NCBI GenBank assembly: GCA_963920765.1
Contig: OY987248.1
Location: 21,486,539-21,550,538 of the forward strand
Source: Ulota crispa
Lineage: Eukaryota; Streptophyta; Bryopsida; Orthotrichales; Orthotrichaceae
DNA length: 64,000 bases
Reading direction: 5' to 3'
The notes beneath the pieces are model-generated. The model was not told the origin of the DNA, searched no databases, and worked only from the letters and a program-made list of their open reading frames with translations. This document shows positions 1-64,000 of the stretch, one piece after another. The translations under genes and the position numbers were made by a program. Position 1 is the stretch's first letter, and every line of letters starts with the position of its first letter.

Positions 1-767
1 CCCTAGGCAATTTGGGCATCTTTGGAGAATTTTATGCTAAAACTCTCATCAATTTCTGAAACTTGGCATGTATGTAACTAGTAAAACATCATATACAATT
101 GTCAAAAAATAACATAAAATAGAGCCTACAAATCACAATCTAAGAAGAGTCAAATTTTGGTAACTATTTCAAGTGGTTTCAAGAAAAAATGGTTTCTTCT
201 AACTTCAAGCCCTATTATTTTACATTCCATACATTCAAGTTCTTGAAACTTTCTTTTCCATATTCCAAATGTTTGCCTCTAAATTTCACCATTCGAATTT
301 CAAACTAAAAAACTTCTTCATTGCACAAGAAATCATGAAAAAATGACTAGTGTATTGCCAATTCACTGAACCTCCTTGCATTGCAAGGTGATTTAGAGTA
401 AATTAAATTCTATATTTACTTTTGAAAATTTTCATGAGTGAACCTAACATCATAAACTTGTGAATGGTCAAAAATCTTGTTTTTGTGTAGAGCAAAAAAT
501 TTACTTTGGGAGGACTTAGAAGTATGCTAACCTTGTTTTGCAAGAATGAAAAAATGTTATTTTTCTCAATTCAAATGTTATAATCTTACAATCCACAAGG
601 TCAATTGGGTGAAATTTTCTAGCACACATTGCCTTACTTGTATAATACACTTTTGTACGGTTGAAACTCAAAAAACGATTTTTATTTTGAACGTTAAATA
701 AATCATGAAAAAATGGCAGTTTTGGTCTTGTTTTTCTCTGCAACTCACTTCGGGCTTTAGGGGTTAA
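1..767 (-). mobile_element. piggyBac-like MITE, subfamily S6 (cut by window edge)
   Basis: The right end reads GGCTTTAGGGGTTAA, with TTAA at 764-767. The body matches, in reverse complement, the complete copy at 25363-26342, including the stretches around 300-480 and the TTTGGAGAATTTTATGC region near position 25. The left end lies outside the window. The 92-aa open frame inside is not conserved as protein between the copies and is not a gene. Confidence 0.8.
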
Positions 768-1643
768 CAAATTGCCTTCATCATTCTCAAGCATGCATCG
801 GCCTTCTATAATGCAAACTACACATTTTGTGTTCTACAATTTATGCTATATATACTTGTGATTTAAATTACAAGTTATACTTTTGCGGCTTGGGACACAT
901 CGGCTACACGCCTATTTGTATTCTAGAATGTACGCCATAGGATGAGGGGTTTGAGATTTGGATGGTAATGTAGACTATAGGTATGTTTAGCCTGCAGACA
1001 ACTGAAACTACACGGGAAATCAGATCAGGTCCCCAGCTGCCATTTCAGAGAATCAAAGTCCTGTTTGTTCAGGATGTGATTGATTTCTTCAATCCAACCT
1101 GCAGATTCCCTTCACAAATCTGCAGTGCAAAATCATCAATGCAGGCCTTAACTTTGACCTTCTTCAAATTAAAATACACATATAAAGAACACAATATTCA
1201 ACATGGGATATGCTTTGGGCATTATTTGCAGTACTTGTGTTTAACGTTCAATTTAACATAGGGGTGTAAAGGTTGAGAATTTGGGTAAGGGCCGTGTATC
1301 ACAACTTGTCATGTAGAAATTGTCTAAACAAAGGTGTGTATCATATGACAAACCTTGAGGATATAAAAGAGTTGTGCAACTGTAGGGTGCCATTATATAA
1401 AAGGTTGAGCATACTACATATGCACAAAATAAAGAAATAATTTTGACCCTTACGTACAGGATCTACTCACGAGTAAAAAAATTGGGGCAACCACACATAT
1501 CCTAAACCATTGTTTTAAATTAGGATATGAGGTTAATTTGGAGGCTAAGAAGATTGCAATCTTTGTTTCTTATTGATTTGGTTTTTGAAATCAACCTCAA
1601 ACCTTTTTTTAAGAAGTCAAGGCCAAAATTTTAGAAATTCTTT
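768..1643. other. AT-rich intergenic stretch, nothing recognised
   Basis: No coding frame, tRNA or clear inverted repeat is visible. A 92-codon open frame at 983-1261 has no recognisable domain and is within chance for this length. Confidence 0.5.
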
Positions 1644-3547
1644 TTAACCCCTAAAGGCGCAAGCCATTAAAAACACTAAAAACTGCCATTTGTCCTAAGA
1701 ACAATATTTTCGTTAACTTTACGAATCTAACCACATGATTTTGCATTAGACACATACAAGAAGCCATAGTGAAATTTTCATGAAGTTTGGTCCTACGGAT
1801 TGAGAGATATGATCATTTGAAGTTAGTACAAAAAAAATAGACCTCCATCCCAAATTTTCAAGTCCCTTTTACTACATATTGTGAATAATTTCTTCCCTAT
1901 AGATGCTGGAGATATTTGTCTAGGGTAGTTGCAAGAAACACTTCACAGTTTTGTCTCAAACATCCTTAAAACTGGTAGTACTAGGTAGTAACTATGAGAT
2001 TTCAAAGTAATATTTTTTTAAATAAAATAAAATAAAATATGGACAATTTGTAAAGCACTTAAAATAGCATACTTGTGAAAATTCAAACCTAGAAAAAATT
2101 TATTCTAAAAGTTATGCACAAAAATAGAGGGATAGAAATTACCAACAAAAAGACAATTTCCTTTTTTATTTTTAGAAAATAATAAAAAATTCAAAAAATA
2201 AAAATAAAAAATGGCCATTTTTTATTTCCCTCATTAGCTTGAACTCGTGTAGGTACTTTTTGGAAGAAGGTTTTTGTCTTTTACCAATGGAGGGAGAAAG
2301 GATGCCCACTTTGAGACAATGTGCAAGGCAAAGATTTTTGAGTTCTGTAAAACAAGTCTACAAGTCTGTGTAATGATGCTTCCTTAACCACTACCCTGAT
2401 TTGCGGTAGCAAATTTGCTTTTTCGGACCCAATGTAGTACTGAAAACCCCCAAAACCATGAAGGTAGACATGCAATGTGGGGCCCCCCTTATAAATAGAA
2501 AAATAAATTTAAAAAACACCAAAAATTTACTAAAGGTCAATAACTTTGATGCTCACCTTACTCTGAAATTTTAGGTCAAAAGAATTTGTTATGCAAAAAA
2601 TACGAGTCTATTACCTCCTGCCTAGGGGAGAGGGCACAAAATGTAGTACAAGTGTTTCTTGCAATCACCCTCCAACATGCTCTAAATCATATTAGGCATA
2701 TTTTCACAAGTTTTCATGGCCAACAAAGACTTCAAACACTCCATGAGCTTGCATTGCAAAACATGTGCTTGAAAATCTCACTACACTAAGGTTTTTGGCA
2801 AACAAAATTTCCAATGGTGATTTTTGAAAATTAAAAATCTCAATAGTAGATTGGAGGTTTTTAACTTTATTGACAACCACAAAAAATTTGAAAAAAATCA
2901 AATCTCTAATAGCTATTGCAGTTCAAAAGTTAGTGTATTTTTCAAATATAGAAATAAATTGATCTAGTACTGTAGGTTGAGAGCAAATTTGGCAAGTCAC
3001 TTCCAAATTGATTAGTTTTTGTGAAAAAATCAATTGGGCATTAGGTTTCATAACTAGTTAAAGATTAGGCATTTTCAAAAAAAGCTGTTAAATTTTAGCA
3101 TTCAACCAAACAAATTAATAGAATCAAGCCTATTTTGAGCATCTTGTAGTTTTTTGTTTTGTTTGACATTGGGCATTTTTGGAGAATAATTTATGAAATA
3201 ATTAGACAAAATTTTAGGAAATTATTTTATGCCAAATCTACTTCCAACCTACAGTACACTATTTCTTCTGGCATATTCTAGTAAAGAGTCATGCCTTTAT
3301 TAGTGGCCCTTGAGAGAAGCCAACAATATTTGACATGCCTTGGTTGCCCCTTGAACAAAAAAGTACATAAAACACCAATAACTTTTGAATTATGAATGTG
3401 ATTTCAAAAAACTGTACTCCCACATAGCCCTTGCAAAACCTTTGTTTCAAAAATAAACTTCATATAAATTAATCAAAATCCTAATAGAATAAGCTTGCCA
3501 AAAACCCATTTTGTCCCCCATAAGGACAATGGGCTTTTAGGTGTTAA
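1644..3547. mobile_element. piggyBac-like compound element, single-copy type
   Basis: The left end is TTAACCCCTAAAGGCGC (TTAA 1644-1647). The right end is GGGCTTTTAGGTGTTAA (TTAA 3544-3547), one base off the usual terminus. The inner left part matches no other copy in the window. A second element (about 1922-2670) sits inside it, which explains the 1.9-kb length against the usual 0.9 kb. Pairing these two ends as one element is an inference. Confidence 0.6.
1922..2670. mobile_element. Nested inverted-repeat element X, copy 1
   Basis: The left end has TTGCAAGAAACACTT and the right end AAGTGTTTCTTGCAA, a 15-bp inverted match. The interior, from TCTCAAAC through the AAAATAAAATAAAATATGG stretch, reappears at 37850-38546. 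The superfamily is unknown and no target duplication is clear. Confidence 0.55.
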
Positions 3548-3598: not shown

Positions 3599-4867
3599 TT
3601 AACTCTAAAGCCTTGGGGCCTTTATTTTGTCAAAAGACACTCAAAATTGCCACTTTTATTGCAAAGAGCAAAAAAGTTTGAAAATTGGTCGTTTTTCATA
3701 TTGAGCCGTAGGATCTTGTACTAGACTAGTATAAAAATGTGGGAAAACACATTCCAAAACTTTGACTGCACAAATTGCAAGATATTTGTGTTTAAAGTGT
3801 AGAAAATAGACTTTTTTGCACCTTGCATGACTAAATTTATGATTTTGAACGTTTTTTACTTAAAATTGCACCACAAAGTTTTGAGATTTATTTCTTTATG
3901 TTGGAAAATTGATTTGAGAATCTTTGGAAAAAAATTCAAACAAAAAATACTTAATTTTCATTCTTAACCCTTTAAGGACGGATGGATCACTGTGGCTTGC
4001 CTTGCCTGTAGCATTCTACAGTGTTTTGCACATGGGCACCAGTAGTATTGCTTCAAAAAGTTGGAAAAGTCAACAATGCATGGTGCCCTCATGAAAATTG
4101 CAAGAAGGGCAACTTGGGAGCTAAAACCATGTTTCTAAATCTTATCATAATTTGGGTTACATAAAAAAAATGAATGCATCTCAAGAGGTAATTTTTTGTT
4201 TTCCATGATGGACCATGTGTTTATGGTCACTTTTGAAAAAAAATCAGATGATAAACAACTTTTTTCCAAATCACAAAATCTTTTTTCAAAGCCAAAGGAA
4301 TTTTTCTTCCTCCTTGATGTTTAGGGGTTAACATTAGGTAGAAGAAGGTATGAGATTGAACAAGAACTTACATTGTTAATAACCCTGCAATGGAATTGAA
4401 ACGCAATAATCCCAATGGTGAGATTGTTCTAGAAAACAAACTTCACCCTCTCAAACAATGTTTTTGAAAAAAAGTTAAACTTGCATTCAAAAATGAAGTT
4501 TATAAGATATTTTTTCAAGAAGATGCTTGAATTGCCCAAAAAACAAGATTATCCATAACTTCCTCATAACTAGTCCAAATGGAATGAATCAAAGCTTTAG
4601 ATGTAGACAAAACTATAAGGCTATGAGAAAAAGAAAAAGAAAAGTTTTTGCAAAAAAAATTCTGCCCAATCTTCATAAATTTATCCTTATATGAGCATAA
4701 CTTTTGCTTTTGGGCATAGATTGGAATAAATAAAAAATTCCCCAAAAGCTAGCTTGTTTTTCTATCTTCAAAAACAGTTTCAAAAATGAGTACAAAAGTC
4801 CAGGCCGTAGGTACCTATCCAAAATCCCAATTGTTCCCAAAGGGTACAACAGGGCTATAGGGGTTAA
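3599..4867 (+). mobile_element. piggyBac-like MITE, subfamily S2, interrupted
   Basis: The start is a degenerate TTAACTCTAAAGCC (3599) and the end is GGGCTATAGGGGTTAA (TTAA 4864-4867). The body matches the uninterrupted copy at 55135-56064, with the shared phrase TTTATTTTGTCAAAAGACAC. The match breaks at 3964 and resumes at 4331, exactly where a smaller TTAA element is inserted. Confidence 0.8.
3964..4331. mobile_element. Small nested piggyBac-like MITE (368 bp)
   Basis: It is bounded by TTAA at 3964-3967 and 4328-4331, with ends AACCCTTTAAGGAC and GTTTAGGGGTTAA. It splits the S2 copy between TTTTCATTC and CATTAGGTAGAAG; at 55498-55520 these two phrases lie about 10 bases apart. No coding content. 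Confidence 0.8.
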
Positions 4868-6648
4868 GCATTAATCCACTTTGAAATGAGCCATTCCACT
4901 TGATTAGGAAGCCACTAATAGTGACATTGAATTACTATTTTTTTTGTCAATAAGTGTAAATACCCATAATTGTCATAATTTATTGTAATCAAGCAAAAAA
5001 CCACTAAGTATTTGGAAGAAAAATTATTGTTTAGTTTTTTGTGAATGAAGAAAAAAATTAGGCGACCAGCGTTTTGTAAAAAAATAGGCGGCAGCTGTTA
5101 CTTCTGTTCTGTGTGAAAGTAAATTTTTTGGTTTTTTACATCCATTTTTTGTTCTAAAAAAATAAACATTTCTCAAGATTCTTAAATTGGCGTCTCAAAC
5201 CTCTTGTCCTAGAATGGTGAAGAGGTTATCTTTAATAAAACATTAAATGAAACCTTGGAAAAGTGATTATCTCTTAGTTTTTCTAAAATACAAGTTACTT
5301 CTTCATCCATTTCAAATAGGTTGTTTTGGCTTAAGCGGCCTCAGCATCAATCCTCGGCATCAATCCAACTAAGGGGTGGTTTGTATTATGTCCCACGTCC
5401 CATGTCCCACTGAAATTTGATCATTTAATTAGTGTAAAGCCAAAAGTTATGATTTGACATTTCATAGTGAGTCCCAGTTCATTACATTTTACTTATGTGG
5501 GAGTACTTTTTGAAAGTTCTGGTGCCAAGAAGGTGAGACTTCACACACAATCTGAGTTTACCTTTTTGTTAAACCCAACTTTCAACCCAAGTACCACCAT
5601 TATTTTTGCAGAAGTATTCTTGGCTTTTATTTAATACTCATTTTTACTTTTAATAACACAACAAAGTTGGGATCTCATGTTGAGACGGAACTTGCAAAGA
5701 TGGGATGTGGAACTTAGTGTGAACTCTCCTTAAATAATGGCCCATTGTCATACATTAATCCTAATTGATCCTCGCGCCAACTTGAGGTAGTCCAAATGTT
5801 CAACAATGTAAGGATGTATTTGACAATGAACCCTAACCCAAGGGCAGAGTAGACATAAAATAGTTTTAAAAACGGATGCTGAAACCTGTGAAAATTTTGA
5901 ATTTTCAGATGTATTGTTTGGTGTAAAAAGGGGTCTTTGAGAATGTACCAAATATTTGTAATATATTCTACCTGTCAAAACTCTTTCTTGAAGAAGATTG
6001 ATTTTTGGCAAGGAAGATGATCTTCAAATAAAGTAATTTAAAAATGTGATTTAGTAGTGACTTTCAAGCACATCATGCAATTTAGCACAAAGGTTTTTGA
6101 AATTATGCCACCAACGCAAAACAGGTTTGTTTACATTGTTTAAGATAGGGGTTTGTTTTATATTTATGTTGGTATGTGGTGAAGCCTCAAATCTTGACAA
6201 CCGGTCAACGTGATTCCTTTGCTTTGTTGGAAAGGTCTTAGAGAGAGGGAGGTACAAAGGAGATAATAGGTTGTTCTTACTTGTAGTGTAGAAGATAATT
6301 ATGGAATCCTAAATAGTCTTGCCACCTAATATAAATTACAAATATAATAAATTACAAATTTTAGTATTTTTTAAATTTATCTTGGTAGAGAGCTTATAAT
6401 CTAATTTTGATAACCGGACTCGTTGTTGTTTAACATGGAAAGAGCAAGATAGGAAAAGGTTACATCATAAACTTTTCAATTCTATCCCAATCAAACTTTC
6501 ATAGTAGGGTTTGAAAAGAATTTGGTAATAACATTTACAAAGGTGTTTACACATTTATTGGCACCTTTTAGGCCACTACAGTCATACACAAACATGACAT
6601 TGCATTCTTTTGGTCATTTGCATTTATGATCCTTGATTTTTGAAAGTT
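4868..6648. other. AT-rich stretch without recognised genes
   Basis: The phrase GTCCCACGTCCCATGTCCCA at 5392-5411 and GGGATCTCATG/GATGGGATGTGG at 5670-5710 hint at a decayed inverted-repeat element, but the match is too weak to call. The open frames at 5748-6257 have no recognisable domain. Confidence 0.4.
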
Positions 6649-7580
6649 TTAACCCTAAAGGTTCATTGTCCCTTCAAAGGACATGCTGGACTTCAGGGGA
6701 CAGGTTGGACTTTGGGCATGTACCTATGATTAAACTACTTTGTGTGATATTCTGAAACTTTTATTGAAGGTGGGGAATTCCAAGATCTGTGTGGGTATCT
6801 CATTTTTTCTTCATTCCAACATTTGATGAAGAAGTTATGCATGAATTTATGAAAATTTGGGGATGATTGCCCATTCGGGCAGTCCATAAACTTCTTCAAA
6901 ATTCACATCTTTTAAAAATAAAAATCTGAAATTGGTTCTTTAGATTTTTTATACATGGGAAGCTTTGAATCATTCAATTTCAATCAATGACATGAAAGTT
7001 ATGAGGAGTTTTTGTTTGCAGGCAATTATGAATTCTCTACTCTAAAATAAACTTTGAAGTCCTTTATTTTACTCAATTTTCATTATTTTGGAAAAGAAGT
7101 TAAACCAAAGGAAGTACATTGTTTATCACAACATTCTAAATGTTGGGATTTTCTTAACAATTTAGTGTTTTGACTCATTCTCTATTTATTTATAGTGACT
7201 ATTTTTTTCCCATGTGTTGTGTAGTTCCAATTGATTTGAAAATTCTCCCACACATACCTAACTTGATCTTCTACATGAAAAAAGGATAGAGCATTTTTTT
7301 TGTTATAAGAGTGGTTAAAGGCTTTTGGAATTTTTGGGCAGCATGGAAAAAAATTGTTTTTTTCACTTTAGATGTAAGTATCTCATTCCTCCATTTGGAA
7401 TGAGTTGACTTTTTTCTTACAAGCACCTCTTCTAGTATAGGGCAAGAGTGCCAAACCCTACGATTGGATTTCCAAAAACGAAACATAAAATCCATTTTTA
7501 CCAAACCTCCTAGAAGTAGCAGTTTTTAGTAATTTTCACAGGAAAAATGGGCTTGATCCTTTACGGGTTCAGTAGGTTAA
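6649..7580 (-). mobile_element. piggyBac-like MITE, subfamily S1b
   Basis: The left TTAA (6649-6652) is followed by CCCTAAAGGTTCATTGTCCC, the end type that carries the GTCCC/GGGAC hairpin. The right end is degenerate (CCTTTACGGGTTCAGTAGGTTAA). The interior carries the S1b hallmark around 7100-7230, reading towards CCCATGTGTTGTGTAGTTCC. Orientation is reversed relative to 13929-14866. Confidence 0.8.
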
Positions 7581-8087
7581 GTTTTATGTATCATTGAATG
7601 TGAAGTTGACCCCTAGAAAAGAGGGCTATCACTTCTTCTTCTTAGTGTTCTAAGGAACTATTTTTGGGTCACGTGCAAAACCTTTACTTTTGCATGTGAC
7701 ATTGTATATATACAGATATTTTACAAACAATCTTTATGACTTTTTTATAAATTTATTTTCTAAATCAAAGAAAATGAAATCAATATGTCTAGAGATATTG
7801 CTAAATTAGCAAAGTCCACTTCTGATACTAATAATATTGTTGCTACATACTTTTCATGTCAATCCAACAACACCATGGTATAATGTATTTTTATATTCTT
7901 GTACTGGGTGTTTCAATAATTTTCATTACTAGTCCATTGTTAGATTATATATTTGGAATTTTTGTCAGTATTGTCATTTTTGTGCAATAAAGTACATTTA
8001 ATATCATAACCGCAAAATAAAGACCAAAATGAAGCACTGCTTTTTATGCAAAATTACAACATATAGTTCATATTTCTTTAACTCCTA
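7581..8087. other. AT-rich stretch, nothing recognised
   Basis: About 500 bp between two piggyBac-like copies. No coding frame or repeat was recognised. Confidence 0.5.
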
Positions 8088-9013
8088 AAGGACAAACTGT
8101 CCCCTCGGAGGACAAATGGTCCTTGGGCATGTACCTATGACTAAATCAATTTTCATAAATTTTTGAAACTTTTGCGGTTGGTGGGGATTTCAAAGATGTA
8201 TATGTACATCTAAAATTTTCTCCATTCCAACATTTACTGAAGAAGTTATGCATGAATTTCTGAAAAACAGGGAAAGGCAAGAAATCTGGGCAGCCCAAAA
8301 TACTTATTTAAAAACTGAATTTTTTTTAAAATAAAAATCTGAAATTGATTCTTTAGATTTTTATTTATGTGAAAAGCTTTGAATCATTCAATTTTGATTG
8401 ATGAGAGAAGTTTTAGTTTGCCAGTAGGTATGGGACTCCCAAACCTCCATTCTTTTTGCCCCTTGTAAAATTTGGTGATAAAATTTAATTTTTAATTTTT
8501 TTCCCATGTTTTAGTAGACTATGATTCCTTGGTTTTCACCATTTGAATCAAAGTTGTTCATATTTCTCAATTTTACATAAATCCTCCAATCTTGTCTAGT
8601 GTATATGCAAACTTCATTGCCTAATGGCATTGCAAGATATTACAAAGTATGATTCACACCTCCAATTCATTTGAAAATTCTCCCACATTTACCTAACTTG
8701 GTCTTCTACATGGAAAATTAAATCTCAACTTTGCATTGAGCATTTTTTTTGATATTGGAGTGATCAAAGGCTTCTGAAATTTTTGGGCAGCACGGAAAAA
8801 AACTTTTTTTTGCACTTCAGATATCAATATCTCACTCCTCTACATCTAGAATGAGCTAGGTTTTTTTCCACAAGTACCTCCCATAGTCTAGGGCAAGATT
8901 CTATGGTTGGATTTTCAAAAAAATTGTTTTTCCTACCTTTGTACTCATTCCCCAAAAAGTGGCAGTTTTAGTGATTTATACAGAAAAAATGGGCTCAGTC
9001 CTTAAGGGGTTCA
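8088..9013 (-). mobile_element. piggyBac-like MITE, subfamily S1a
   Basis: The left end is TTAACTCCTAAAGGAC with the adjoining GTCCCCTCGGAGGAC hairpin. The right end is GGCTCAGTCCTTAAGGGGTTCA, whose last TTAA has decayed to TTCA. The interior matches 46503-47441 and 62034-62988 (reversed), including TTGCCCCTTGTAAAATTTGG near 8456. Confidence 0.85.
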
Positions 9014-12036: not shown

Positions 12037-13277
12037 TTAACCCCTAAAGGACCAAGCCCATTTTTTTTGTAAAAATCACTGAAAATTGTTGTTTTTGGGG
12101 GAATAAGTGGGAAGGTAGGAAAAAAGTTTTTGCAGGAAATCCATTCATAAGATCTTGCCCTAGGCTATGGGAGGTACTTGTGGGAAAAGAATCAGCTCAT
12201 TCTAGGTGTAGAGGAGTGAGATACATTTGAAGTGAAAAAACAAGTTTTTTTCCTTGCTACCCAAAAATTTAAGAAGCCTTTGATCACTCCTATATCAAAA
12301 AAATTGCTTTAGACAAAATTGAGGTTTATTTTTCCATGTAGAAGACCAAGTTAGGTAAGTGTGGAAGAATTTTCAAATGAATTGGAGATGTGAAACAGAC
12401 TTTGTAAAATCTTGCACTGCAATAAGGTCATGAAATTTGAATATACACTAGGCAAAATTGGAGAATTTATGAAAAATTCAAAAATTCTTATTTTACAAAT
12501 TGAAGCGGTGAACAACTAGAATTCTTAATTCTCTACAACTTCAATAAAAAACAGAAATAAAAAGTGATTCAAATATGGCTCTAAAAATTAGAATATACAA
12601 TTTGGGTAAGGGGCAGATGAAATTGGGGTTTCAGGCCCCCAACACGGGTCCCCTCCACCCCCTTCCATCTAGCCCCTGCCCAGGGGGGTTGCTAGGAAAT
12701 ATCTGGGTCCAGAAGCTCTTACATGCTCATGCGCTCCCCTCTTACTGCACTGGTGTTCTCACGCGTTCTAGTGTTGCTCCCTTCATGCTCCCACATGCTC
12801 CCAAGTCGCTCCCAATTTGCTCCCCTACTGCTCCCTTTCTACTCCCGCGGTGCTTCTGTGCTCCCATTGGCCAGTGGCCAATTGTTTTAAAAACCGCCAC
12901 GTGCAGGTGCTAAAGAACTAAACCCTCCCCCCACCGGCTGTCAGGCCGTGTCAGGCAAGGGTCTGACACACTACCCCTCAAAATGCTGCCCAACATACTT
13001 TTTGTTGGTGCCCTTAATGGCTGCCCCTTCTGCTAGTCAATGATCCCATACAAAGGAGAGCTCCTGCCCCTGCTGTCCCATCTCCACCTTTTTTCAAAAA
13101 TAGTTGCATAACTTCTTCGTTGAATGTTGGAATGAAGAATTTTTTTGATGTTCACGTAGGTCTCTCAATTCCCCACTTTCATTAAAAGTTTCAAAAATAT
13201 CCTAAACTAGAAAATCTAAAAATACATGCCCAAAGTACCACTTGTCCCTCAAGGGGACAGTTGGTCCTTTAGGGGTT
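12037..13277 (+). mobile_element. piggyBac-like MITE, S1a, with a GC-rich internal segment
   Basis: The start is TTAACCCCTAAAGGACCAAG (12037). The end is GGTCCTTTAGGGGTTAC, whose TTAA has decayed to TTAC (13274-13277). The outer parts match 45487-46439. About 12600-13080 is foreign to the family: GC-rich, with a repeated TGCTCCC motif at about 12775-12865. The 112-codon open frame there (12575-12913) is rich in P, L and S and looks like a by-product of that base composition, not a gene. Confidence 0.8.
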
Positions 13278-13776
13278 ACATACATGGACCTGCCAAAATA
13301 TTTTCCTTGGCACCGCAAAAATTGCAATTTTTTCATGCACAATAAATTTTTCAAATAGTACCTTGTTTTGGTGAGAATCTATTTACTTATGCAAACAAGT
13401 AGGTTTGTTATTAGTTGAACACATTATGTTACCTAATTGGATGGTGGGGAAAGCAAGTGGTCAACACTGAAAACAAGAAACACTATGTTTTCCAATGATG
13501 AAGTCTTGAAGTTGGTTGGGGATGGGCAGCCACCCTCTAAATCCACCACCAAATTCAGGTGTTTGAGATGAAATTTTTGTGCGAGGGCGCTGGGAATTGC
13601 GATGCTCTCAAAAGTGCAGGTATGCGTCATACAATATGTTGTGGGGACTGAGGAACACGCTCATAGCAGGTGGAGAACAACTACCATGAAGAACCAAAGG
13701 CACCATGCCAAGCCAAGCCAATGGGAAGGTCGGGTGCGTGGGGCTGGGGACTAGCCCAAGAGTGGAAATGTGGAAT
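13278..13776. other. Intergenic stretch of mixed composition
   Basis: Two short minus-strand open frames (13433-13630, 13608-13799) have no recognisable domain. Nothing else seen. Confidence 0.4.
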
Positions 13777-13842
13777 AAGGTAGGTATACTCATTCCCAAC
13801 CATTGAACCTATTGTCGCTCAAATGTGCACATAGCATACACT

Positions 13843-13932
13843 TTAATTCTTAAATTTAGGCACGTCATAGATGTCTAATTTTCTGTGCACAGAAAACTAG
13901 ACATCTATGACGTGCCTAGATTTGAGAATTAA
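13843..13932. mobile_element. Tiny TTAA-flanked palindrome (90 bp)
   Basis: TTAA lies at 13843-13846 and 13929-13932. Between them is one hairpin with arms through TAGGCACGTCATAGATGTCTA and its inverse, closing on CTGTGCACAG. It lacks the CCCCTAAAGG terminus, so its relation to the larger TTAA elements is uncertain. Confidence 0.65.
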
Positions 13933-14866
13933 CCCCTAAAGGACTGAGCCATGTTTTTAGTGAAAATCACTCAAAATTATCATTTTTGGGGGTTAGTAAG
14001 AAGGTGATTTTTTTTGAAAATTTGGGGAATCCAACCGTAGGATCTTGCCCTATGCTGGATTAGGTACTTGCGGAAAAAAAATAAAGTCATTCCAGATGGA
14101 CATGAGTGAGATATTTACATTTAAAGTGAAAAGAAAAGTTTTTTTTCATGCTGCCGCAAAATTTTAGAAGCCTTTGACCATTCTTACATGAAAATAATTG
14201 CTCTATGCAACTTTGTGCTTTATTTTTCCCATGTAGGAGATCAAGTTATATGTGGGAGAATTTTCAAATCAATTGGAACTACACAACACATAGGAAAAAT
14301 CAGTAAGTAAAAAGAAGTAGAGAATGAGTCAAATCATTAAATTGTTAAGAATTTAATTATTAAAATGAAAAATGCAAATCCCAACAGTCATAATGTTGTG
14401 ATAAACAATGTACTTTCTATGGTTTTGTTTTTTTTTTTCCAAAATAATGAAAATTGAGTGAAATAAAGGACTTCAAAGTTTATTTTAGAGAAGAGAATCC
14501 ATAACTGCCCGCAAACAAAAACTCCTCATAACTTCCATCTCATTGATTGAAATTGAATGATTCAAAGCTTCTCACCTATAAAAAAAAATCTAAAGAACCA
14601 ATTTCAAATTTTAATAAATAAAAAATAAAAAATTTAAAGAAGTTTTTGAGCTGCCCGAGCGGGCAGTCCTCCCTTGCTTTTTAGATTTTCATGCATAACT
14701 TCTTCAATAATTGTCGGAATGAGGAAAAATTTAGATGCCCGCATAGATCTTGAAATTCCCCACCTTCAGTAAAAGTTTCAGAAAGTCACACAAAGTAGCG
14801 TATCCAAAGGTACATGCCCAAACTCCCACCTGTCCCCCGAAGGGACAACAGTCCTTTAGGGGTTAA
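13929..14866 (+). mobile_element. piggyBac-like MITE, subfamily S1b
   Basis: The left end is TTAACCCCTAAAGGACTGAG. The right end is GTCCTTTAGGGGTTAA (TTAA 14863-14866), with the CCCGAAGGGAC hairpin just inside. The S1b interior includes AACTACACAACACATAGG and TGCAAATCCCAACAG. It shares its left TTAA with the small palindrome before it. Confidence 0.9.
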
Positions 14867-36295: not shown

Positions 36296-36660
36296 AAATG
36301 CTAAAGCCACACCCAAAATTGCTAACGCCACACCCCAAGGTGTGCTTTGAGCACAAAATGTGAGAACTTAATGCAGATTTTTTTGATTTGGATCAAAGGA
36401 TTTGTTTCACCTTTGTCATTCTAAGATTGCATTAAAACAAATTGGAGGCGCTTGAATTCAATACTAAAATTATAGGACTTTGAATTACTTAAAGCAAAAA
36501 TACACAAAAGAAATAGCAATGGTGCAATAAAAGTTTGACAAAATATAATAATTTGTTCTTCTTTCTTTCAAGGAGGTGGTAATGCCATGATTGAGTGAAG
36601 GATGGATCACTAGAAGAAAAAAAAACTAACATTATATATATATATATATATATATATATA
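36250..36660. mobile_element. Insert between two TA microsatellites
   Basis: A TA run (about 36247-36291) precedes TAGGGAAATGCTAAAGCCAC, and a second TA run (about 36634-36660) follows CTAGAAGAAAAAAAAACTAAC. The surrounding foldback arm pairs across the insert (AACTATGTTA with TAACATAATT), so everything between is extra. The layout resembles elements that target TA repeats, such as rice Micron; that comparison is an inference. Confidence 0.6.
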
Positions 36661-45486: not shown

Positions 45487-46439
45487 TTAACCCCTAAAGG
45501 ACCAAGCCCTTTTTTCTTTGAAAATCACTGAAAATTGTCATTTTTGGGGGAATGAGTAGAAAGGTAGGAAAAAAAGCTTTTTTGAAAATTCAACCATAAG
45601 ATCTTGCCCAAGACAATGGGAGGTACTTGTGGGAAAAATTTCAACTCATTCTAGAAGCATAGGAGTGAGATAATGACATCTGAAGTGAAAAAAAAAGTTT
45701 TTCCGTGCTGCCCAAAAATTTTAGAAGCCTTTGACGGCTCCTACATCAAAAAAATTGCTCTACTCATAGTTGAGGTTTATTTTTCCCATGTAGTAGACCA
45801 AGTTAGGTAAATGTTGGACAATTTTCAAATGAATTGGAGGTGTGGATCATACTTTGTAAAATCCTACAATGTCATAAGGCCATGAAATTTGCATATACAC
45901 TAGGAAAAATTGTAGAATTTATGTAAAATTCAAAAATATGAATTACTCTGATCCAAATGGTAAAACCAAGGAATCTTAAACTACTACAACTTGGAAAAAA
46001 ACAGTAAAAAAATAAATACACAAAGAGCTCAAAGAAAGAAAGCAACAAATTTTACAAGGGGGAAAAAGAATGGAGGTTTGGGTGTCCCATACTTACCTGC
46101 AAACTAAAACTTCTCATAACTTTCATCTCATCAATTGGAATTGAATGATTCAAAGATTTCCACATTTGTATAAATCTAAAGAACCAATTTCAGATTTTAT
46201 GTTAAAAAAATGCAAGTTTGATTTTTTTTTGGGTTGCCCGCTCTCCCCCTTTTTCAGATATTCATACATAACTTCTTCCATAAGTGTTGGAATAAAGAAA
46301 AAGTTAGATGCCCACGTAGATATTTGAATTTCCCACCTTCCATAAAAGATTCAAAAAATCACAAAAAGTAGATTAGCTATAGGTACTTGCCCGAAATCCA
46401 TTTGTCCTCCAAGGGGACAGTTGGTCCTTTAGGGGTTAA
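45487..46439 (+). mobile_element. piggyBac-like MITE, subfamily S1a
   Basis: TTAACCCCTAAAGGACCAAG to TTGGTCCTTTAGGGGTTAA (TTAA 46436-46439), with the CTCCAAGGGGACAG hairpin inside the right end. It is a well-preserved reference copy for S1a, 953 bp. Confidence 0.9.
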
Positions 46440-46502: not shown

Positions 46503-47441
46503 TTAACCTCTAAAGGCCCATTGTCCCCTCAAGGGACAAATGGGATTTTGGGCAAGTACCTATGGCTAAACTACTTTGCGTGATTTTCTGAAACTTTTAT
46601 TCAAGGTGGGGAATGTGAAGACCTATGTGGGGGTATAATTTTTTCTCCATTCTGAAAATTATTGAAGAAGTTATGCATGAATAACTGGAAAATAGGGGAG
46701 AACTAGACAAAAAATAAATAAATAAATAAAATTTTGAAATTGGTTCTTTATATTTTATGTATTTGGGAAGCTTTGAATCATTCAATTTTGATCGATGAGA
46801 TGAAAGTTATGAGAAATTTTAGTTTGCGGGTAGGTATGGGACTCCCAAACCTCCATTCTTTCCCCCCCTTGTAAAACTTTTTGCTTTACTTTTTTGAGCT
46901 CTTTGTGTTTTTTTTTTTTTTTGACTTTTTTTTTGCAAGTTGTAATAGACTAAGATTCCTTGGTTTTCACCATTTGGATCAAAGTAATTTAGGTTTTTGA
47001 ATTTTACATAAATCCTCCAATTTTGCCTAGTGTATATGCAAATTTCATGACCTTATGACATTGCAGGATTTTACAAAGTATGATCCACACCTCTGTTTAA
47101 TTTGAAAATTCTCCCACATTTACCTAACTTGGTCTTCTACATGGGAAAAATAAACCTCAACTTTGCGTAGAGCAATTTTTTTGATATAGGAGCCGTCAAA
47201 GGCTTCTAAAATTTTTGGGCAGCACGGAAAAACTTTTTTTTTCTCTTCTTATAGGAATATCTCACTCCTCACCTTCTAGAATGAGCTAGTTTTTTTGCAT
47301 AAGTACCTCCCATTGTCTAGGGGAAGATCTTACAGTTGGATTTCCAAAAAACAAACAAAAATTACATTTCTCCTCACTCCCCCAAAAGTCACAGTTTTGA
47401 GTGATTTTCACAAAAAATGGGCTTGGGCCTTGAGGGGTTAA
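46503..47441 (-). mobile_element. piggyBac-like MITE, subfamily S1a
   Basis: TTAACCTCTAAAGGCCCATT with GTCCCCTCAAGGGAC on the left; GGGCCTTGAGGGGTTAA (TTAA 47438-47441) on the right. Reverse orientation of 45487-46439. The right terminus has the CTCAAGG variant seen at 28200-28856. Confidence 0.9.
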
Positions 47442-48397: not shown

Positions 48398-48821
48398 TTA
48401 ACCCCTAAATCCCTGAGTGTCCCCTCGGGGACAAATGAGATTTCGGGCATGTACCTATGACTAAACTACTTTGTGTGATTTTTTGAAACTCTTATGGAAG
48501 ATGAGGAATTCAAAGATCCGTGTGCACATCTAATTTTTTTTTCATTCTGACATTTTTTGAAGAAGTGTAAAATGAATTTCTGAATTTTTTTTGGAGATGG
48601 GGCTACCCAGACTGCCCCATCTCCAAAAAAAATTCAGAAATTCATTTTACACTTCTTCAAAAAATGTCAGAATGAAAAAAAAAATTAGATGTGCACACGG
48701 ATCTTCGAATTCCCCATCTTCCATGAGAGTTTCAAAAAATCACAAAATGTAGTTTAGTCATAGGTACATGCCCGAAATCTCATTTGTCCCCCTAAGGGAC
48801 ACTCAAGAATTTAGGGGTTAA
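48398..48821. mobile_element. piggyBac-like foldback (424 bp), nearly perfect hairpin
   Basis: TTAACCCCTAAATCCCTGAG (48398) to AAGAATTTAGGGGTTAA (48821). Both arms are the hairpin side of S1 and pair over about 200 bp with few differences, closing at TGGGGCTACCCAGACTGCCCC near 48605. It shares its right TTAA with the next copy. Confidence 0.9.
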
Positions 48822-49726
48822 CCCCTAAAGGATCAAGCTCCTTTTTCTAACAACATAGCAATTTTGGGTAAGTACATGTGATTGGAGATTTTCATGTTTT
48901 AGGCTAAAATTCTAATAGAATCTGGGAACAAGGTTTATCTTTCATGTGCACTAAATTTCATGACATTTGGAATTATGAATAAGATAATATGACCTAATAT
49001 GTTGTTTTTTCACTTGGAGGGCAGCTTGGGTAGATTTTTAAAAAGTACTTTTTTTAGAAACAAAATTTCAAAGTTGCTTTAGGAGATTTATGTGAACATG
49101 GAAAGCATTGAATCATTCTGTTTTGATCCATGAGATGAGAGTTATGAGGAGTTTTTGTTTGTGGGCAATTATGGATTTTCTACTTTAAAATAAACTTTGG
49201 AGTCCTTTATTTTACCCAATTTTCAATATTTTTGAAAAAAAAACTAAACCCAAGGATGTACATTGTTTATTACAACATTAATTACAACCATTGGGATTGG
49301 CATTTTTTTCCATAATTAAATTCTTAACAATTTTGTGTTTTGAATCATTCTCTACCTTTTTTTACTTCCTATTTTTTTTCCCATGTGTTGTGTAGTTGCA
49401 AATGATTTGAAACTTTATTGATATGTACCCTACTTAGGTGGAATAAGGATTCTAGGGAAGAACCACCCACATGGCCTTTTTTCCTTAGGAATTTCACCTT
49501 CTAAAGAGTAGTTGCCCAATTTTTCACAAGATATTTCTAAATATTCAAACCAATCCAGGGGGAAGACTCTGAAATTTTTTCCACGCCTTTTAAAACTATT
49601 CTACTACAAGATTCTATGGTTAGATTTGCATAAAAATGTTTTTATTTTCAAATTTGATTGATGCTCTAAAAATGGCAGTTTTGAAGAGTTTTTGGTGAAA
49701 TAGTTGCTTGGTCCTTTAGGGGTTAA
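48818..49726. mobile_element. piggyBac-like MITE, subfamily S5
   Basis: TTAACCCCTAAAGGATCAAG (48818) to TTGGTCCTTTAGGGGTTAA (TTAA 49723-49726). The body matches 56424-57496 (TTTTGGGTAAGTAC, CACTAAATTTCATGA, ACCACCCACATGGCC). Confidence 0.9.
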
Positions 49727-51255: not shown

Positions 51256-51777
51256 TTAACCCCTAAGCGCACAATCAATCATTTTTTGGTTGCTACCCAA
51301 GACAAAAAATATTTTTTTTCAAATTTTTTTTGTAATAGAAAATCAAGTCTACTCTCCAACTTAATTTGAATCGTGTCAATCCAAGTCAAACTCTACCAAG
51401 GAGAATTTTTCAAAGACAAACATTTCAATATTTGCTAGTGTTGTAAAATTTACTATGTCAAGAAACTAATGTTGTTCTCTCCTTTCAAAAGATTTCATTT
51501 TTGAAGTTTAGGATAAAATGTCTATTTTTAACCAATCATACCAATTTTTAAAATCTATGAGTAAAATTTGTGATTTTGGTGAATATTAAATGGTAAATGC
51601 TTCCATATTCATTACATAAAAATTCAAAGCTTTTCTTGAGTGTTTGACCTTATGGACAATTACTAAACATTATGATTCTTATTTCTCTTTTGAAGCAAAC
51701 TTCATCAAAGTTACAAAAGTACCATTTTATAACACATCTACATTTTGCCCTTACCCCCTTGGGCCTTTAGGGGTTAA
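51256..51777. mobile_element. piggyBac-like MITE, subfamily S3, complete copy
   Basis: TTAACCCCTAAGCGCACAATC (51256) to CCCTTGGGCCTTTAGGGGTTAA (TTAA 51774-51777), 522 bp. Its partner is nested at 22194-22730. Confidence 0.9.
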
Positions 51778-51881: not shown

Positions 51882-52807
51882 TTAACTCCTAAAGGACCAA
51901 TTGTCCCCTCCGAGGGCAAATGGATTTTGGGCATGTATCTACAGCTAAACTTGTTTTTGTTATTTTTTGAAACTTTTATTGAAGATGGGGAGTTCAAAGA
52001 CCTACGCAGTCATCTAATTTTCTCTTCATTTTGACATTCAACAAAGAAGTTATGCAAGAATTTATCAAAACCAGGGGATAAGGGGCAGTTTGGGCAGGGC
52101 CACTCCTTTGTAAGTGGATGTTGACTCCAAAGAGGGTCAACCATTACACGCACAAGGTGTGGACACTTGGGCAAAGGGGAGTGGAGTGGAAGGGGCCCTC
52201 CTTGGGAAACTCCCAATACTCCATTCATTTTGCCCCTTGTAAAATTTGGTACACTAATTTCTTGAGCGACTTGTGTTTTTTATTTTTACTTATTTTTTCC
52301 AAGTTGTAGTAGACTAAGATTCTGTGGTTTTTTGCCATCTAGATTAAAGTAATTCAGGTTTCTAAGTTTTACATATATCCTCCAATTTTGTTTAGTATAT
52401 TTGTAAATTTCATGACCTTCCGGCATTCAAAGATTTTTTGAAGCATGTTACACACCTCCAATTCATTAAAAAATTCTCCCACACACACTTAACTTGGTCT
52501 TCTACATGGAGCAATTGAACCTCAATTTTGTGTAGAGCAATTTTTTTGCTATAAGAGTGATCAAAAGCTTTTGAATTTTTGAACAAAGGAAGTTTTTTTC
52601 TTCTTCACTTCAAATATCAATATCTTACTCATTTTTAATTTAAAATGAGCTATTTTTTTCCACGAGTACCTCCCATAGTCTGGGAAAAGACCCTTCGGTT
52701 GGATTTCTAAAAGAAACTAATTGAACCTATCTTTCTACTTTGTCCCACAAAAGTAGCAGTTTTGAATGACTTTCATAGATCAAAGGGCTTGGTCCTTTAG
52801 GTGTTAA
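51882..52807 (-). mobile_element. piggyBac-like MITE, subfamily S1a
   Basis: TTAACTCCTAAAGGACCAATT with GTCCCCTCCGAGGGC, to GGTCCTTTAGGTGTTAA (TTAA 52804-52807). A GC-richer insert-like patch at 52080-52215 carries a 72-codon frame that lies in both element and patch and is not gene-like. Confidence 0.85.
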
Positions 52808-53652: not shown

Positions 53653-53946
53653 CAAGGCAGGGGAGCAACAGCTTTGCACCTTCAGCTCGTAAATGCCAAG
53701 GCGGGTAATTCATCTAGTTCTAGGGGTTCCGTAGCTCCAGTCCAAAAAAAATAGGGGGTTCATATATCCCAAAAAAATGATGAACAAATGGTTGTGAATT
53801 AGTTTTTGAGGTGAATACGCTACGACGACCTTTAGGAGGTTGCCATGGTTTGTTCATGGAGTGACTTGCACATGTTTTTCACAAATCTTATTCACGTGAA
53901 GGATTTTGGTGCTGAACGGCATATTTGAAACCCCCTAATATTGACA
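53653..53946. other. Short mixed-composition spacer
   Basis: No gene or clear repeat. Confidence 0.45.
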
Positions 53947-54775
53947 TTACCCCTAAAGGCCCAAGCCCTTTATTTTGTGAAAGTCACTCAAGAACTGCCA
54001 CTTTTGGGGGAATGAATAGAAAGGTAGGAATTTTCTTATTTTTTGGAAATCCAACTGTAGGATCTTGCCTTGGACTATGGAAGATACTTGTGTGGAAAAA
54101 ATTAGCTCATTCTAGATGTAGAGGAGTGAGATATTGACATCTAAGGTGAAAAAAAAGTTTTTTTCCGTGCTGCCCAAAAAATTTAGATGCCTTTGATGGC
54201 TCTTATGTCAAAAAATTGCTCTACGCAAAGTTGAGGTTTTTTTTCCCATGTAGAAGACCAAGTTAGGTAAGTGTGGGAGAATTTCAAATGAAGTGGAGGT
54301 GTGGACCACACTTTGTAAAATCTTGCAATGTCATAAGGTCATGATATTTGCATATACACTAGGCAAAATTAGAGGACATATGTAAAATCTAGAAATTTAA
54401 ATTATTGTGATCCAAATGGGTGAAAACCAAGGAATCTTAATCTACTACAACTTGGAAAAAAAAGGAAGTCAAAATACAAATACACAAAGAGAACAAAAAA
54501 GTAAAGCACCAAATTTTACAAGGGGAAAAAGGAGTGGAGGTTTGGGAGTCCCATACCTACTTGCAAATTAAAACTTCTCATAACTTTCACCTCATCAATC
54601 AAAATTGAATAATTCAAAGCTTCCCACATATGTAAAAATCAAAAGAACCAATTTCAGGTTTTTATTTTTAAAAAATGTAATTTTTGTTTTGTTTTTAATT
54701 GTTCAATTCTCCCTTTTTTTTAAAGTTATTCATGCATAAACTCTTCAATAAATGTCAGAATGAAAAACAAACAAA

Positions 54776-54811
<36 letters not shown>

Positions 54812-54937
54812 ATGCATATCCTTGAATTGCCCACCTTCCATAAAAGTTTCAAAAAATCACACAAAGTGGTTTAGCTATAAGTACATGCCCAAACCCTACT
54901 TGACCCCCAAAGGACCACTTGGGTTTTTAGGGGTTAA
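53947..54937 (+). mobile_element. piggyBac-like MITE, subfamily S1a
   Basis: It starts TTACCCCTAAAGGCCCAAG, where TTAA has lost one A, and ends TTTTTAGGGGTTAA (TTAA 54934-54937). A run of about 33 A at about 54777-54809 inflates the length. Confidence 0.85.
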
Positions 54938-55134: not shown

Positions 55135-56064
55135 TTAACCCCTAAAGGACCATGGCCTTTATTTTGTCAAAAGACACTCAAAATTGCCACGTCTATGGCA
55201 AAGAGTAAAAAAGTTTGAAAATCAAGCATTTTGCATATCTGACCGTAGGATCTTGTACTAGACTACTATAAGAATGTGTCATACAAAACTCAAGAACTCT
55301 GACTGCACAGATTGGAAGATATTTGCATTTAAAAAGTAAAAAACAACTTTTTTTGCACCTTGCTTGACTAGAGTTTTTAACTTTGAACATTTTTAACTTA
55401 AAAGTTTTGCACCATAGAGTTTGGAATTCTATTTTTGCATGGTGGGAAATTGAGTTGGGAATCTTGGGAAAAAATTTCAAAAAAGAATACTTAATTTTCA
55501 TTCTTTGAAAAAACATTAGGTAGAAGAAGGTATGAGATTGAACAAAAACTTAAATTGCTAATAACCCTGCAATGGAATTGAAACGCAATAATCCCAATGG
55601 TGAGATTGTTCTAGAAAGCAAACTTCACCCTCTCCAACAATTTTTTTGAAAAAATGTTAAATTTGCATTCAAAAATGAAGTTTATAAGTTATTTTTTCAA
55701 GAAGATGCTTGAGTTGCCCAAAAAACAAGATTGTCCATAACTTTCTCATAACTAGTCCAAATGGAATGAATCAAAGCTTCAGAAGTAGATAAAGATATAA
55801 TGTATGAGAAAAAGAAATTAATTTTTTTTTTTCAAGTTTTTATAAGAATTTTTTTTGCTGCCCCTAGTCCCCAATTTTGTGCTTATTTGGGCATAACTTT
55901 TGCTCCCTAGCATCAATTGGAATAAAAATTAGATTCCCCAAAAGCTAATGTGTTTTTCTATCTTCAAAAAGAGTTTCAAAAAATTAGGACAAAAATTGAG
56001 GCCATAGGTACCTGCCCAAAATCTCATTTGTCCCTTGAAGGGACAATAGTCCTTTAGGGGTTAA
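55135..56064 (+). mobile_element. piggyBac-like MITE, subfamily S2, uninterrupted reference copy
   Basis: TTAACCCCTAAAGGACCATGG (55135) to GTCCTTTAGGGGTTAA (TTAA 56061-56064), with TCCCTTGAAGGGACA inside the right end. It shows the state before insertion for 3599-4867 and 37160-38855. Confidence 0.9.
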
Positions 56065-60304: not shown

Positions 60305-60307
60305 TAA

Positions 60308-60746: not shown

Positions 60747-60749
60747 TAA

Positions 60750-61312: not shown

Positions 61313-61320
61313 ATAGTTAC

Positions 61321-61897: not shown

Positions 61898-62033
61898 ATA
61901 GTTACTTAAATAGTAAGATGGAGCACGTACAACCATCATGAAAGATGATGGAATACCATGCTTAGGGTATGTAAAAGGTATCTTCAACTCCTTTGTTTAT
62001 TTACTCAGGATATTGCAAAACTAATTAACGTCA

Positions 62034-62988
62034 TTAACCCTAAAGGCCCAAGCTTTTTTTTGTATGAAAGTCATTGAAACTGCCACTTTAGGGGAATGAG
62101 TAGAAAAGTAGGAATAAAGTTTTTTTGGGAAATCCAATTGAAGGATCTTGCCCTAGACTATGGAAGGTACACGTGGGAAAAAAATCAGCTCATTCCAGAT
62201 GGAGAGGAGTGAGATATTGACATCTAAAGTGAAAAAATAGTTTTTTCCAAGCTGCCCAAAAATTTCATAAGCCTTTGACCGCTCCTATAAAAAGAATGCT
62301 CTACGCAAAGTTGAAGTTTCTTTTTTCCATGTAGAAGATCAAGTTAGATATGTGTGAGAGAATTTTAAAATGAATTGGAGGTGTAAAACATACTTTGTAA
62401 AATCTTGCAATGCCGAGAGGTCATGAAATTTGCATATACACTAGGCAAAATTGAAGGATTTATGTAAAACTCAAAAGTTTAGATCACATTGATCCAAATG
62501 GTGAAAACAAAAGGTTTTTAGCTTGCTACAACTTGGGAAAAAAACTAATTAAAAAACAAATACAAAAAGAGCCCCAAAAAGTAAAGCACCAAATTTTACA
62601 AGGTGTAAAAGGAGTGGAGGTTTGGGAGACTCCATACCTACCCGCAAACTAGCACTTCTCACTCATCAATCAAAATTGAATGATTTGAAGCTTCCTACAT
62701 ATATGTAAATCCAAAGAACCAATTTCAAATTTTCATTTTAGTAAAATGCAAATTTTAAAAAAGTTTTTTGGGTTGCTTGGATTGCTAGCTCTCCCCTAAT
62801 CTTCAAATATTTGTGCATAACTTCTTCAATAAATATTGGAACAAAGAAAAAATTAGATGCCTGCATAGTTTTTGGAATTCCCTACCGTCAACATAAGTTT
62901 CAGAAAATCACGCAAACTAGTTTAGCTATAGGTACATGCCCAAAATCCATTTGTCCCCCAAGGGAACAGTTGGGACTTTAGGGGTTAA
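62034..62988 (+). mobile_element. piggyBac-like MITE, subfamily S1a
   Basis: It starts TTAACCCTAAAGGCCCAAG (62034) and ends GGGACTTTAGGGGTTAA (TTAA 62985-62988), with GTCCCCCAAGGGAAC inside the right end. Confidence 0.9.
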
Positions 62989-63404
62989 TTGAACTTATTT
63001 CCAAACCCATTGGCACTCAAATGGGATGCACTTGTTACGCAAAACCATTATTTTGTCACTCATAACCAATTTTTTTTGTATTCGTTAGTCATGAGATCAA
63101 AATATACAAATGTGGGTGCAAATGTAGATTAAGCCCATGGAGACCTCACATTCATGGGTGCTGTTACCTTAACCCCTAAAGAATGTCTTTGTATTGTATA
63201 CGCTCTTTTGTGTTGTATACAAATTGGGTATTTGGGTAGCACATGAATTACATTGATGCTTTGAATTTTATGCCAAGTCATGGACACACTCCTGATCAAC
63301 TAGAATTTTTGGGGGAGTTTTTGGCATTTGTCATGAAGCCATTTCTTCAAGTACTAGATGGTCCTTGTATGAATATAGCCAACACTTTTGGTAGGCAAAA
63401 TCCT
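62989..63404. other. Spacer with a lone piggyBac-like left end and a short open frame
   Basis: TTAACCCCTAAAGAATGTC at 63169 is a good left terminus whose right partner is not in the window. It may enclose the next copy and end beyond 64000. The plus frame from 63243 (MNYIDALNFMPSHGHTPDQL) is 62 codons and runs into the S1 copy; its family is not recognised. Confidence 0.45.
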
Positions 63405-64000
63405 TTAACCCCTAAAGGATCAAGTCTTTAAGTGCCACTTCTAGGAGGTTTAGCAAAAAGGATCTTATGTTTTCATTTTGGGAAATCCAACTATAGGATC
63501 TTGCCCTAGACTAGAAGAGGTACTTGTGGGAAAAAATCAGCTCATTCCAGATAGAGAGGAGTGAGATATTTACTTCTAAAATGAAATATTTTTTTTTTCC
63601 ATGTTGCCCAAAAATTTCAAAAGCCTTTGACCAGTCTTACATGAATTTTTTTGCTCTACCCAAAGTTGCACTTTATTTTTTCCATGTAGGAGGTCAAGTT
63701 AGGTATGTATGGCAGAATCTTTGAATCAATTGGAACTATACAACACATGGGAAAATATAGTAAGCAAAAAGAAGTAGAGAATGAGTTAAAACACTGAATT
63801 GTTAAGAATTTAATTATTGAAATCAAAAATGCAAATCCCAATAGTTATAATGTTGTGATAAATAATATATTTCCTTTTGTGATAAATAATCTATTTCCTT
63901 TGGTATATATATTTTTCCAAAATTTTAGAAAATTGAGTAAAATATAGGACTTTAAAGTTTATTTTAGAGTAGAGAATCCACAACTACCCGCAGACAAAAA
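63405..64000 (+). mobile_element. piggyBac-like MITE, subfamily S1b (cut by window edge)
   Basis: TTAACCCCTAAAGGATCAAG (63405). The body follows 13929-14866 and 26379-27353 (AACTATACAACACATGGG, AAGAAGTAGAGAATGAGT) to the window end. TTGTGATAAATAATATATTTCC is duplicated locally at 63855-63900. Confidence 0.85.

Follow-up and report, generated by a model that had tools for sequence, protein, structure and literature searches.

piggyBac transposons are known mainly from animals, in which piggyBac-derived miniature inverted-repeat transposable elements (MITEs) are deleted derivatives that keep both ends and the TTAA target and are mobilised in trans. Here, we examined a 64,000-nucleotide stretch of the genome of the moss Ulota crispa (assembly GCA_963920765.1, contig OY987248.1, positions 21,486,539 to 21,550,538; hereafter, the window), in which repeats with shared terminal inverted repeats (TIRs) and TTAA at their edges recur many times, together with the whole assembly (274.8 Mb in 157 contigs). 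We conclude that these repeats belong, as non-autonomous elements, to a transposon family of the piggyBac superfamily in this moss, a reading to which we assign a probability of roughly 0.95. Below, L numbers designate examined loci and C numbers chromosomes or contigs.

Two kinds of plant elements are likewise high-copy, non-coding and bounded by TIRs: Stowaway (Tc1/mariner), which targets TA, and Tourist (PIF/Harbinger), which targets a 3-base site. The moss family differs from both in its four-base TTAA and its linked piggyBac transposase. With piggyBac of Trichoplusia ni (T. ni) and with piggyBat it shares the PF13843 domain, a triad of catalytic aspartates (DDD), a cysteine-rich tail, the TTAA target and short ends starting with CCC; it differs from them in its host, a moss. 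T. ni piggyBac measures 2,472 bp with 14-bp ends (PMC10140906), whereas the transposase-bearing moss copies span 8.0-8.8 kb, contain repeats in their middle and have a second conserved stretch upstream. Like the animal MITEs, the short moss elements are deleted and keep their ends and TTAA, and by analogy they would have been mobilised in trans; they differ in their length of ~0.93 kb, in their tens of thousands of ends and in residing in a 275-Mb plant genome. MITEs are quoted as usually staying below 600 bp (PMC6913007), a length that the ~0.93-kb copies of the window and of chromosome C1 exceed; in being high-copy and non-coding, with inverted ends that also bound a transposase-bearing relative, they agree with the MITE definition.

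Ends and target site

The motif CCCCTAAAGG matched the window 51 times at up to one mismatch, compared with 3.7 expected matches, and none of 100 shuffles scored as high; TTAACCCCTAAAGG, at up to three mismatches, matched 65 times (9.9 expected). A consensus built from 48 window ends with TTAA and at most two mismatches reads CCCCTAAAGG(A/C)CCAAG, about 16 bp in inverted orientation, in which the first 10 bases were fixed by the search pattern and bases 11-16 are independent of it. These are inverted repeats of the CCC/GGG-starting kind found in the piggyBac superfamily, and outside the mirror-symmetric ends the TTAA is itself mirror-oriented. TTAA precedes 21 of the 24 exact CCCCTAAAGG copies in the window, with TAAT, ATTA and GTAA preceding one each, so that the original prediction of TTAA at every edge was right for nearly all exact ends but slightly too strong in its "always". 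An Rfam search of the window returned no matches.

Across the genome, TTAACCCCTAAAGG occurs 40,957 times at up to one mismatch (20,459 forward and 20,498 reverse), compared with 133 occurrences (76 and 57) of the reversed-pattern control. A chance origin of the end motif is thus rejected, the ends being far above chance in both the window and the genome. The window, with 37 such ends in 64 kb, has 3.9 times the average density of the genome. Extrapolating from end counts, the family makes up about 7-10% of the genome: the lower share takes 20,479 pairs of 0.93 kb (19 Mb, 7%) and the upper takes 40,957 ends at the window ratio of 681 bp per end (28 Mb, 10%).

The exact 14-base end CCCCTAAAGGACCA is present 8,876 times in the genome, 7,555 of them directly after TTAA. 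Among ends with the other bases kept, the outer T alone was changed in 305 and the inner A alone in 257. Since the outer and inner bases decayed alike, the target fixed at insertion was the four-base TTAA and not TA. Empty sites alone cannot separate these models, because joined flanks read TTAA under a TTAA or a TA duplication. The cleanest empty site lies in a palindrome arm at 13777-13932, which aligns at 93% over 156 bp and reads AAGAATTAAAGTG; the arm occupied by the element at 13929-14866 has two TTAA and the empty arm one. Similarly, the empty counterpart of the element at 34581-36142, within 36647-36846, holds a single TTAA in an 84% spanning alignment. The end counts and the empty palindrome arm together show both the TTAA target and its duplication; among the 25 elements compared for empty sites no different duplication (TA or none) emerged, and the genome-wide base counts oppose TA.

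In three places of the window, ends stand back to back around one TTAA:

28190-28213, unstranded: back-to-back ends around the TTAA at 28200-28203, junction GGGTTAACCCC
44003-44026, unstranded: back-to-back ends around the TTAA at 44013-44016
48808-48831, unstranded: back-to-back ends around the TTAA at 48818-48821

Outward ends around a single TTAA occur at 767 places genome-wide at up to two mismatches (control, 0), and such junctions are expected from insertion into the TTAA of a resident copy. A rough random estimate is about 250 junctions, hinting that new copies preferentially insert beside older ones.

Transposase-bearing elements

The piggyBac transposase domain PF13843 (DDE_Tnp_1_7) has at least 120 matches in the genome, a lower bound for which 116 of 528 candidates were scored. 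The read-through translation of L035 matched PF13843 with an E value of 2.4e-64 and no other Pfam family at E<=0.1, and its only solved-structure matches at E<=1 were piggyBat (9c0f) and the transposase chain 6x67, which we take to be T. ni piggyBac (E 3e-20 for both). Of 24 read-through rows, 21, 17 and 21 have D at the three catalytic positions, and N accounts for 12 of the 13 exceptions. By eye, the cysteine-rich C-terminal tail CVVC...CPSCGNKFMC...GCF..H is most complete in L035. The DDD triad of piggyBac transposases is therefore mostly kept in this set, and their C-terminal cysteine-rich domain is present.

Among the 20 loci first examined, L025 and L026 gave a strong match to half of a window element. 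A search with the L026 transposase returned 96 other places, 47 of them at 45-65% identity (many being fragments of one copy) and the remaining 49 at 29-43%. Seven loci of the closer group were examined with long flanks, and four of these were extended 6 kb further upstream. A tree of 24 transposases separates these seven from the rest by a branch with 100/99 support. Within this clade L041 lacks the third aspartate and L043 the first, and the cysteine-rich tail is eroded in the six loci other than L035.

Six of the seven clade loci carry the family 3' end, with no or one mismatch, 1.3-1.6 kb past the transposase match, and all four loci extended upstream carry both ends, the opposite one with 0-2 mismatches. 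The four long elements thus delimited measure 8,255, 8,023, 8,530 and 8,829 bp, and lie on four chromosomes; in each, the gene begins 5.3-6.0 kb from the start of the element. Identity to window elements is 68-85% over the first ~200 bp and the last ~500 bp. A DDE_Tnp_1_7 transposase therefore lies inside the same ends at four loci, which is what the original prediction had proposed to look for; its assignment of the repeats to the piggyBac superfamily, made from the ends alone, is borne out by PF13843, the structure matches, the DDD triad, the cysteine tail, TTAA and the ends. It had also placed the autonomous partner elsewhere, or lost. Transposase relatives do lie elsewhere in the genome and, with PF13843 genes and long elements with the same ends present, loss of the partner is rejected, yet the clade copies examined are broken. 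No transposase of another superfamily was found within the same ends, although no search was aimed at other superfamilies.

All four long elements (designated by letters below) share a conserved stretch at about 1.2-2.0 kb. Its best-scoring frames run in the direction of the transposase, but the antisense frames come close (108 and 94 bits for A versus B), so coding is not proven, and a Pfam search of this stretch in one copy returned no families; the stretch could represent a second gene or an exon upstream of the transposase, or neither. In the interval that separates it from the transposase, elements A, B and D contain, once or twice each, a palindromic repeat of ~400 bp that is also found in the window at 32557-32972, and the remaining long element has another window repeat in that position. 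Judging from these repeats, part of the 8-kb length is probably nested material.

Many divergent piggyBac transposase families, 29-43% identical to the one described here, are spread over chromosomes C1-C11 (L009-L028, L049 and L050). The resident piggyBac population is diverse and probably old. A second family, represented by L009 and L018 (90% identical), has the 3' end AATGAAGGG-TTAA, at L009:3989-4002 and L018:3988-4001, and similarity between the two stops one base past the TTAA. The use of TTAA therefore seems to extend beyond a single piggyBac lineage in this genome. Both ends of other families were not found within 1.5 kb of their transposases; for the 17 other transposases of the tree the flanks covered 1.5 kb per side, and CCCCTAAAGG ends may lie beyond. 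At L050:1487-2869, a 460-aa stop-free open reading frame (ORF) of another piggyBac family matches PF13843 (E 2.2e-47) and has, by eye, all three aspartate motifs; it is possibly a younger or domesticated gene. At L049:1540-3141, a piggyBac gene consists of two open stretches with ~290 bp between them, resembling a gene interrupted by an intron.

Alternative explanations

Under a Tc1/mariner (Stowaway-like) origin, the elements would duplicate TA, their ends would start with ACCCC and TTAA would be a mere preference. The joined flanks suit this origin too, as they read TTAA under both models. A mere flank preference, however, would make the outer base far more variable, and losses of the outer T (305) and of the inner A (257) are similarly rare; the transposase linked to the ends is, moreover, PF13843. 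We reject the 2-base TA duplication on these genome-wide base counts and consider a mariner origin extremely improbable. The 3-base duplication of PIF/Harbinger (Tourist) elements is likewise rejected, as a 3-base direct duplication does not give a mirror-oriented TTAA. Kolobok and Sola3 do use TTAA targets, so that another TTAA superfamily could have mobilised the short elements, and Sola1 is listed for a moss (PMC9033089). Our genome transposase searches covered PF13843, and four loci have a piggyBac transposase between these very ends, together with ~700 bp of matching subterminal sequence, which leaves such a source very unlikely. One might also suppose that the long elements are not the source, with a piggyBac gene nested in large copies whose true partner was another element. 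Other repeats do lie inside the long elements, and their middle (~2-5 kb) shares little beyond the palindromic units. Set against this, the gene is similarly placed in the four loci (5.3-6.0 kb in, the 3' end following 1.3-1.6 kb later), and in the examined loci the transposase clade correlates with the type of end; we hold nesting of this kind to be unlikely.

Several observations weigh against the piggyBac reading itself. Joining the flanks of 25 elements (18 from the window and 7 from L001-L008) gave a spanning empty site for only five, with eight alignments in total: two with a clean single TTAA, one with TTAA plus extra bases and five with other letters. The empty-site check put forward in the original prediction thus gave a single TTAA in the cleanest case, but a clean site in only two of eight alignments from this sample. 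The L002 versus L007 alignment reads CCAA, and two spanning alignments of 55135-56064 with L046, at 68-70% identity, read TGAA; these letters would be fitting for a mutated four-base site but are no proof of one. At 3964-4331, three empty copies have about six extra A-rich bases, with TTAA inside one of them (L008) and no clean duplication. In L043, its own 3' end was not seen in the stretch examined, where a separate short element lies. The middle ~200 bp of the short elements finds no match in the long ones, which at 8 kb exceed the piggyBac elements described in the cited literature. No intact clade transposase was found, as stops interrupt all seven genes and all full-length matches listed. 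PF13843 was present in none of 14 control genomes, a result of little weight as the named controls are prokaryotic.

Age and proposed mechanism

Fourteen non-autonomous 3' halves lie at Kimura distances of 0.09-0.22 from the column majority, with a mean pairwise distance of 0.26 and a closest pair at 0.144, and five 3' halves from long elements lie at 0.17-0.32. No young copy appeared in this small sample, drawn nearly all from the window. Given the age of the sampled copies and the stops in the transposase copies examined, the family is probably dormant or dead.

The match of the outer ~200 and ~500 bp of the long elements to the short ones makes the latter look like internally deleted piggyBac derivatives. 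We infer that the short elements arose from long ones by internal deletion, and that the transposase would have bound the shared ends, excised the elements and pasted them into TTAA, duplicating it. One deletion form of ~0.93 kb, with its subfamilies, would then have been amplified to tens of thousands of ends, and new copies may often have entered a TTAA beside an older copy, leaving back-to-back pairs with one TTAA.

Elements of the window

Family-like sequence covers 25,217 of the 64,000 window bases (25.2 kb, 39%), using a library of 14 window copies, seven copies from chromosome C1 and the four 8-kb elements. Coverage was 22,772 bases when the window copies were left out of the library and 23,220 bases, in 31 blocks, when the 8-kb elements were. 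Repeats of any kind, by within-window comparison, cover 33,867 bases. The family is dense, as originally predicted, although the ~35 MITEs and half of the window given there were both a little high. The absence of a transposase from the window, also predicted, was confirmed: tblastn with 24 transposase translations found none at E<0.01, and the window has no ORF of >=150 aa from ATG, GTG or TTG.

The 14 window copies with paired ends are mostly 909-992 bp long, the exceptions being 1,243 bp and 1,452 bp (the latter with an insert); on C1, seven of eight copies are 900-958 bp, and the second end of the other was not seen. Pairwise comparison of the 14 copies (91 pairs) detected shared sequence at E<=1e-5 in 75 pairs; the alignment spans half or more of one copy, at 71-83% identity, in 45 pairs, and two thirds or more in 37. 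The copies at 25363-26342 and 55135-56064 have little in common with the other 13 beyond the outer ~50-150 bp, and 48818-49726 has its ends and a middle stretch in common with other copies. Most well-bounded window copies are thus one ~0.93-kb family with related subfamilies; a few diverged bodies exist, but the "many unrelated-looking bodies" of the original prediction mostly reduce to this family. The elements are as follows:

3964-4331, unstranded: 368-bp element nested in another family member; body without match in the library
6648-7571, + strand: ~0.93-kb non-autonomous piggyBac element, paired ends, 924 bp, four end mismatches; 3' part aligns with the 3' end of transposase-bearing loci
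8078-9013, + strand: ~0.93-kb non-autonomous piggyBac element, paired ends, 936 bp; 76% to the L034 3' end over ~480 bp
12037-13279, - strand: main-family copy with a longer middle, 1243 bp, paired ends, one mismatch; first 529 bp 74% to the L034 3' end
13929-14866, - strand: non-autonomous element in one palindrome arm, exact ends, 938 bp
21806-23257, + strand: interrupted main-family element, 1452 bp, with a ~0.52-kb insert at about 22207-22730; left 400 bp 83% and right ~527 bp 85% to 8078-9013, and other copies align too; insert 85% to 51280-51777, its left end eroded
25363-26342, unstranded: diverged subfamily with the same ends, exact, 980 bp; 76% to a copy in L042 over ~760 bp
26379-27353, - strand: non-autonomous element, exact ends, 975 bp; 75% to the L034 3' end over ~355 bp
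28200-28856, unstranded: short element with paired CCCCTCAAGG ends, 657 bp
34581-36142, unstranded: 1.56-kb element; empty counterpart within 36647-36846, 84%
45487-46439, - strand: well-preserved non-autonomous element, exact ends, 953 bp; 76% to the L034 and 78% to the L039 3' end over 510-530 bp, 75-84% to four 5' ends
46503-47441, + strand: well-preserved non-autonomous element, 939 bp; 78% to the L034 3' end over ~540 bp, 85% to the 5' end of long element D over 198 bp
48818-49726, unstranded: subfamily element, exact ends, 909 bp; 81% to a copy in L043
51256-51777, unstranded: 522-bp element with related, paired ends; relative of the insert in 21806-23257
51882-52807, + strand: non-autonomous element, 926 bp; 73% to the L034 3' end over ~447 bp
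53946-54937, - strand: non-autonomous element, 992 bp; 78% to the L034 3' end over ~515 bp
55135-56064, unstranded: subfamily element, exact ends, 930 bp
62033-62988, - strand: non-autonomous element, 956 bp; 78% to the L034 3' end over ~474 bp

The two ~0.52-kb elements (22207-22730 and 51256-51777) form a further subfamily, the first being nested in a main-family member.

Host genome

Telomere repeats are present at the start of C2 (CCCTAAA) and the end of C10 (TTTAGGG). Mosses characteristically lack rpoA in the plastid and carry it in the nucleus. Both rbcL and accD lie on contig C157 (112.5 kb), and in the 13.4 kb of it examined petD is followed after ~180 bp by rps11, with no rpoA between them (plastid genes other than rbcL were named by eye). 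Among solved structures, rbcL is best matched by 9chz. The rpoA C-terminal domain has a single assembly match, at C2:26544671-26544853, accompanied by a 360-aa open frame. The plastid gene order and chromosomal rpoA fit a moss and point to a moss-type transfer of rpoA to the nucleus. A plastid insert in C2 (L038) has two main pieces 95.8 and 99.1% identical to C157, by which we reject an origin of chromosomes and plastome from different organisms. At L037 (C97:116673-120440), bacterial-looking foreign coding sequence runs straight into plastid rbcL; on this arrangement C97 is judged to be a chimeric or contaminant contig.

Implications

A 2022 review of land-plant transposable elements treats six TIR superfamilies, its main text not including piggyBac (PMC9033089), and a 2008 paper counts five superfamilies described in plants (PMC2528002). 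A survey of MITEs published in 2025, with four bryophytes among its 207 plant genomes, sorts elements into five superfamilies plus Micron by the rules of EDTA TIR-Learner, with neither piggyBac nor TTAA named in the main text, and puts the group averages for MITEs at 0.7-2.2% of the genome and at 156-251 bp in length (PMC12550479). As a tool, piggyBac was untested in Physcomitrella in 2017 (PMC5505980). Against a claim of first sight, one paper states in general terms that piggyBac has been identified in plants (PMC10140906), another includes PiggyBac in its list of plant superfamilies with reference to Wicker 2007 (PMC10794571), and a fern genome was assigned 1,230 PiggyBac pieces totalling 122 kb, or 0.00% (PMC6890710). 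Among the titles and abstract openings examined in the open-licence literature we found no report of a native piggyBac in a bryophyte, and in the open-licence literature searched none of piggyBac dominance in a land plant.

The superfamily itself is established; this family merits reporting for its host lineage, its scale and its long transposase-bearing elements. Our results indicate that piggyBac has been amplified natively in a land plant, with a single family at ~7-10% of a moss genome against MITE averages of 0.7-2.2% in PMC12550479. The largest repeat class in two mosses is "CACTA" or "unclassified" (PMC11704416, PMC9946827), which makes misfiling a possibility; piggyBac may be hidden under these labels in other mosses. 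Tentatively, and with rather less than even confidence, we propose that mosses harbour an old and diverse native piggyBac lineage, which includes large elements with a second conserved gene and whose derivatives would make up several to ten percent of moss genomes and be misfiled as CACTA or unclassified, since plant pipelines sort TIR elements into other superfamilies. If this is true, land plants would have a further TIR superfamily, one that has shaped a major lineage unseen.

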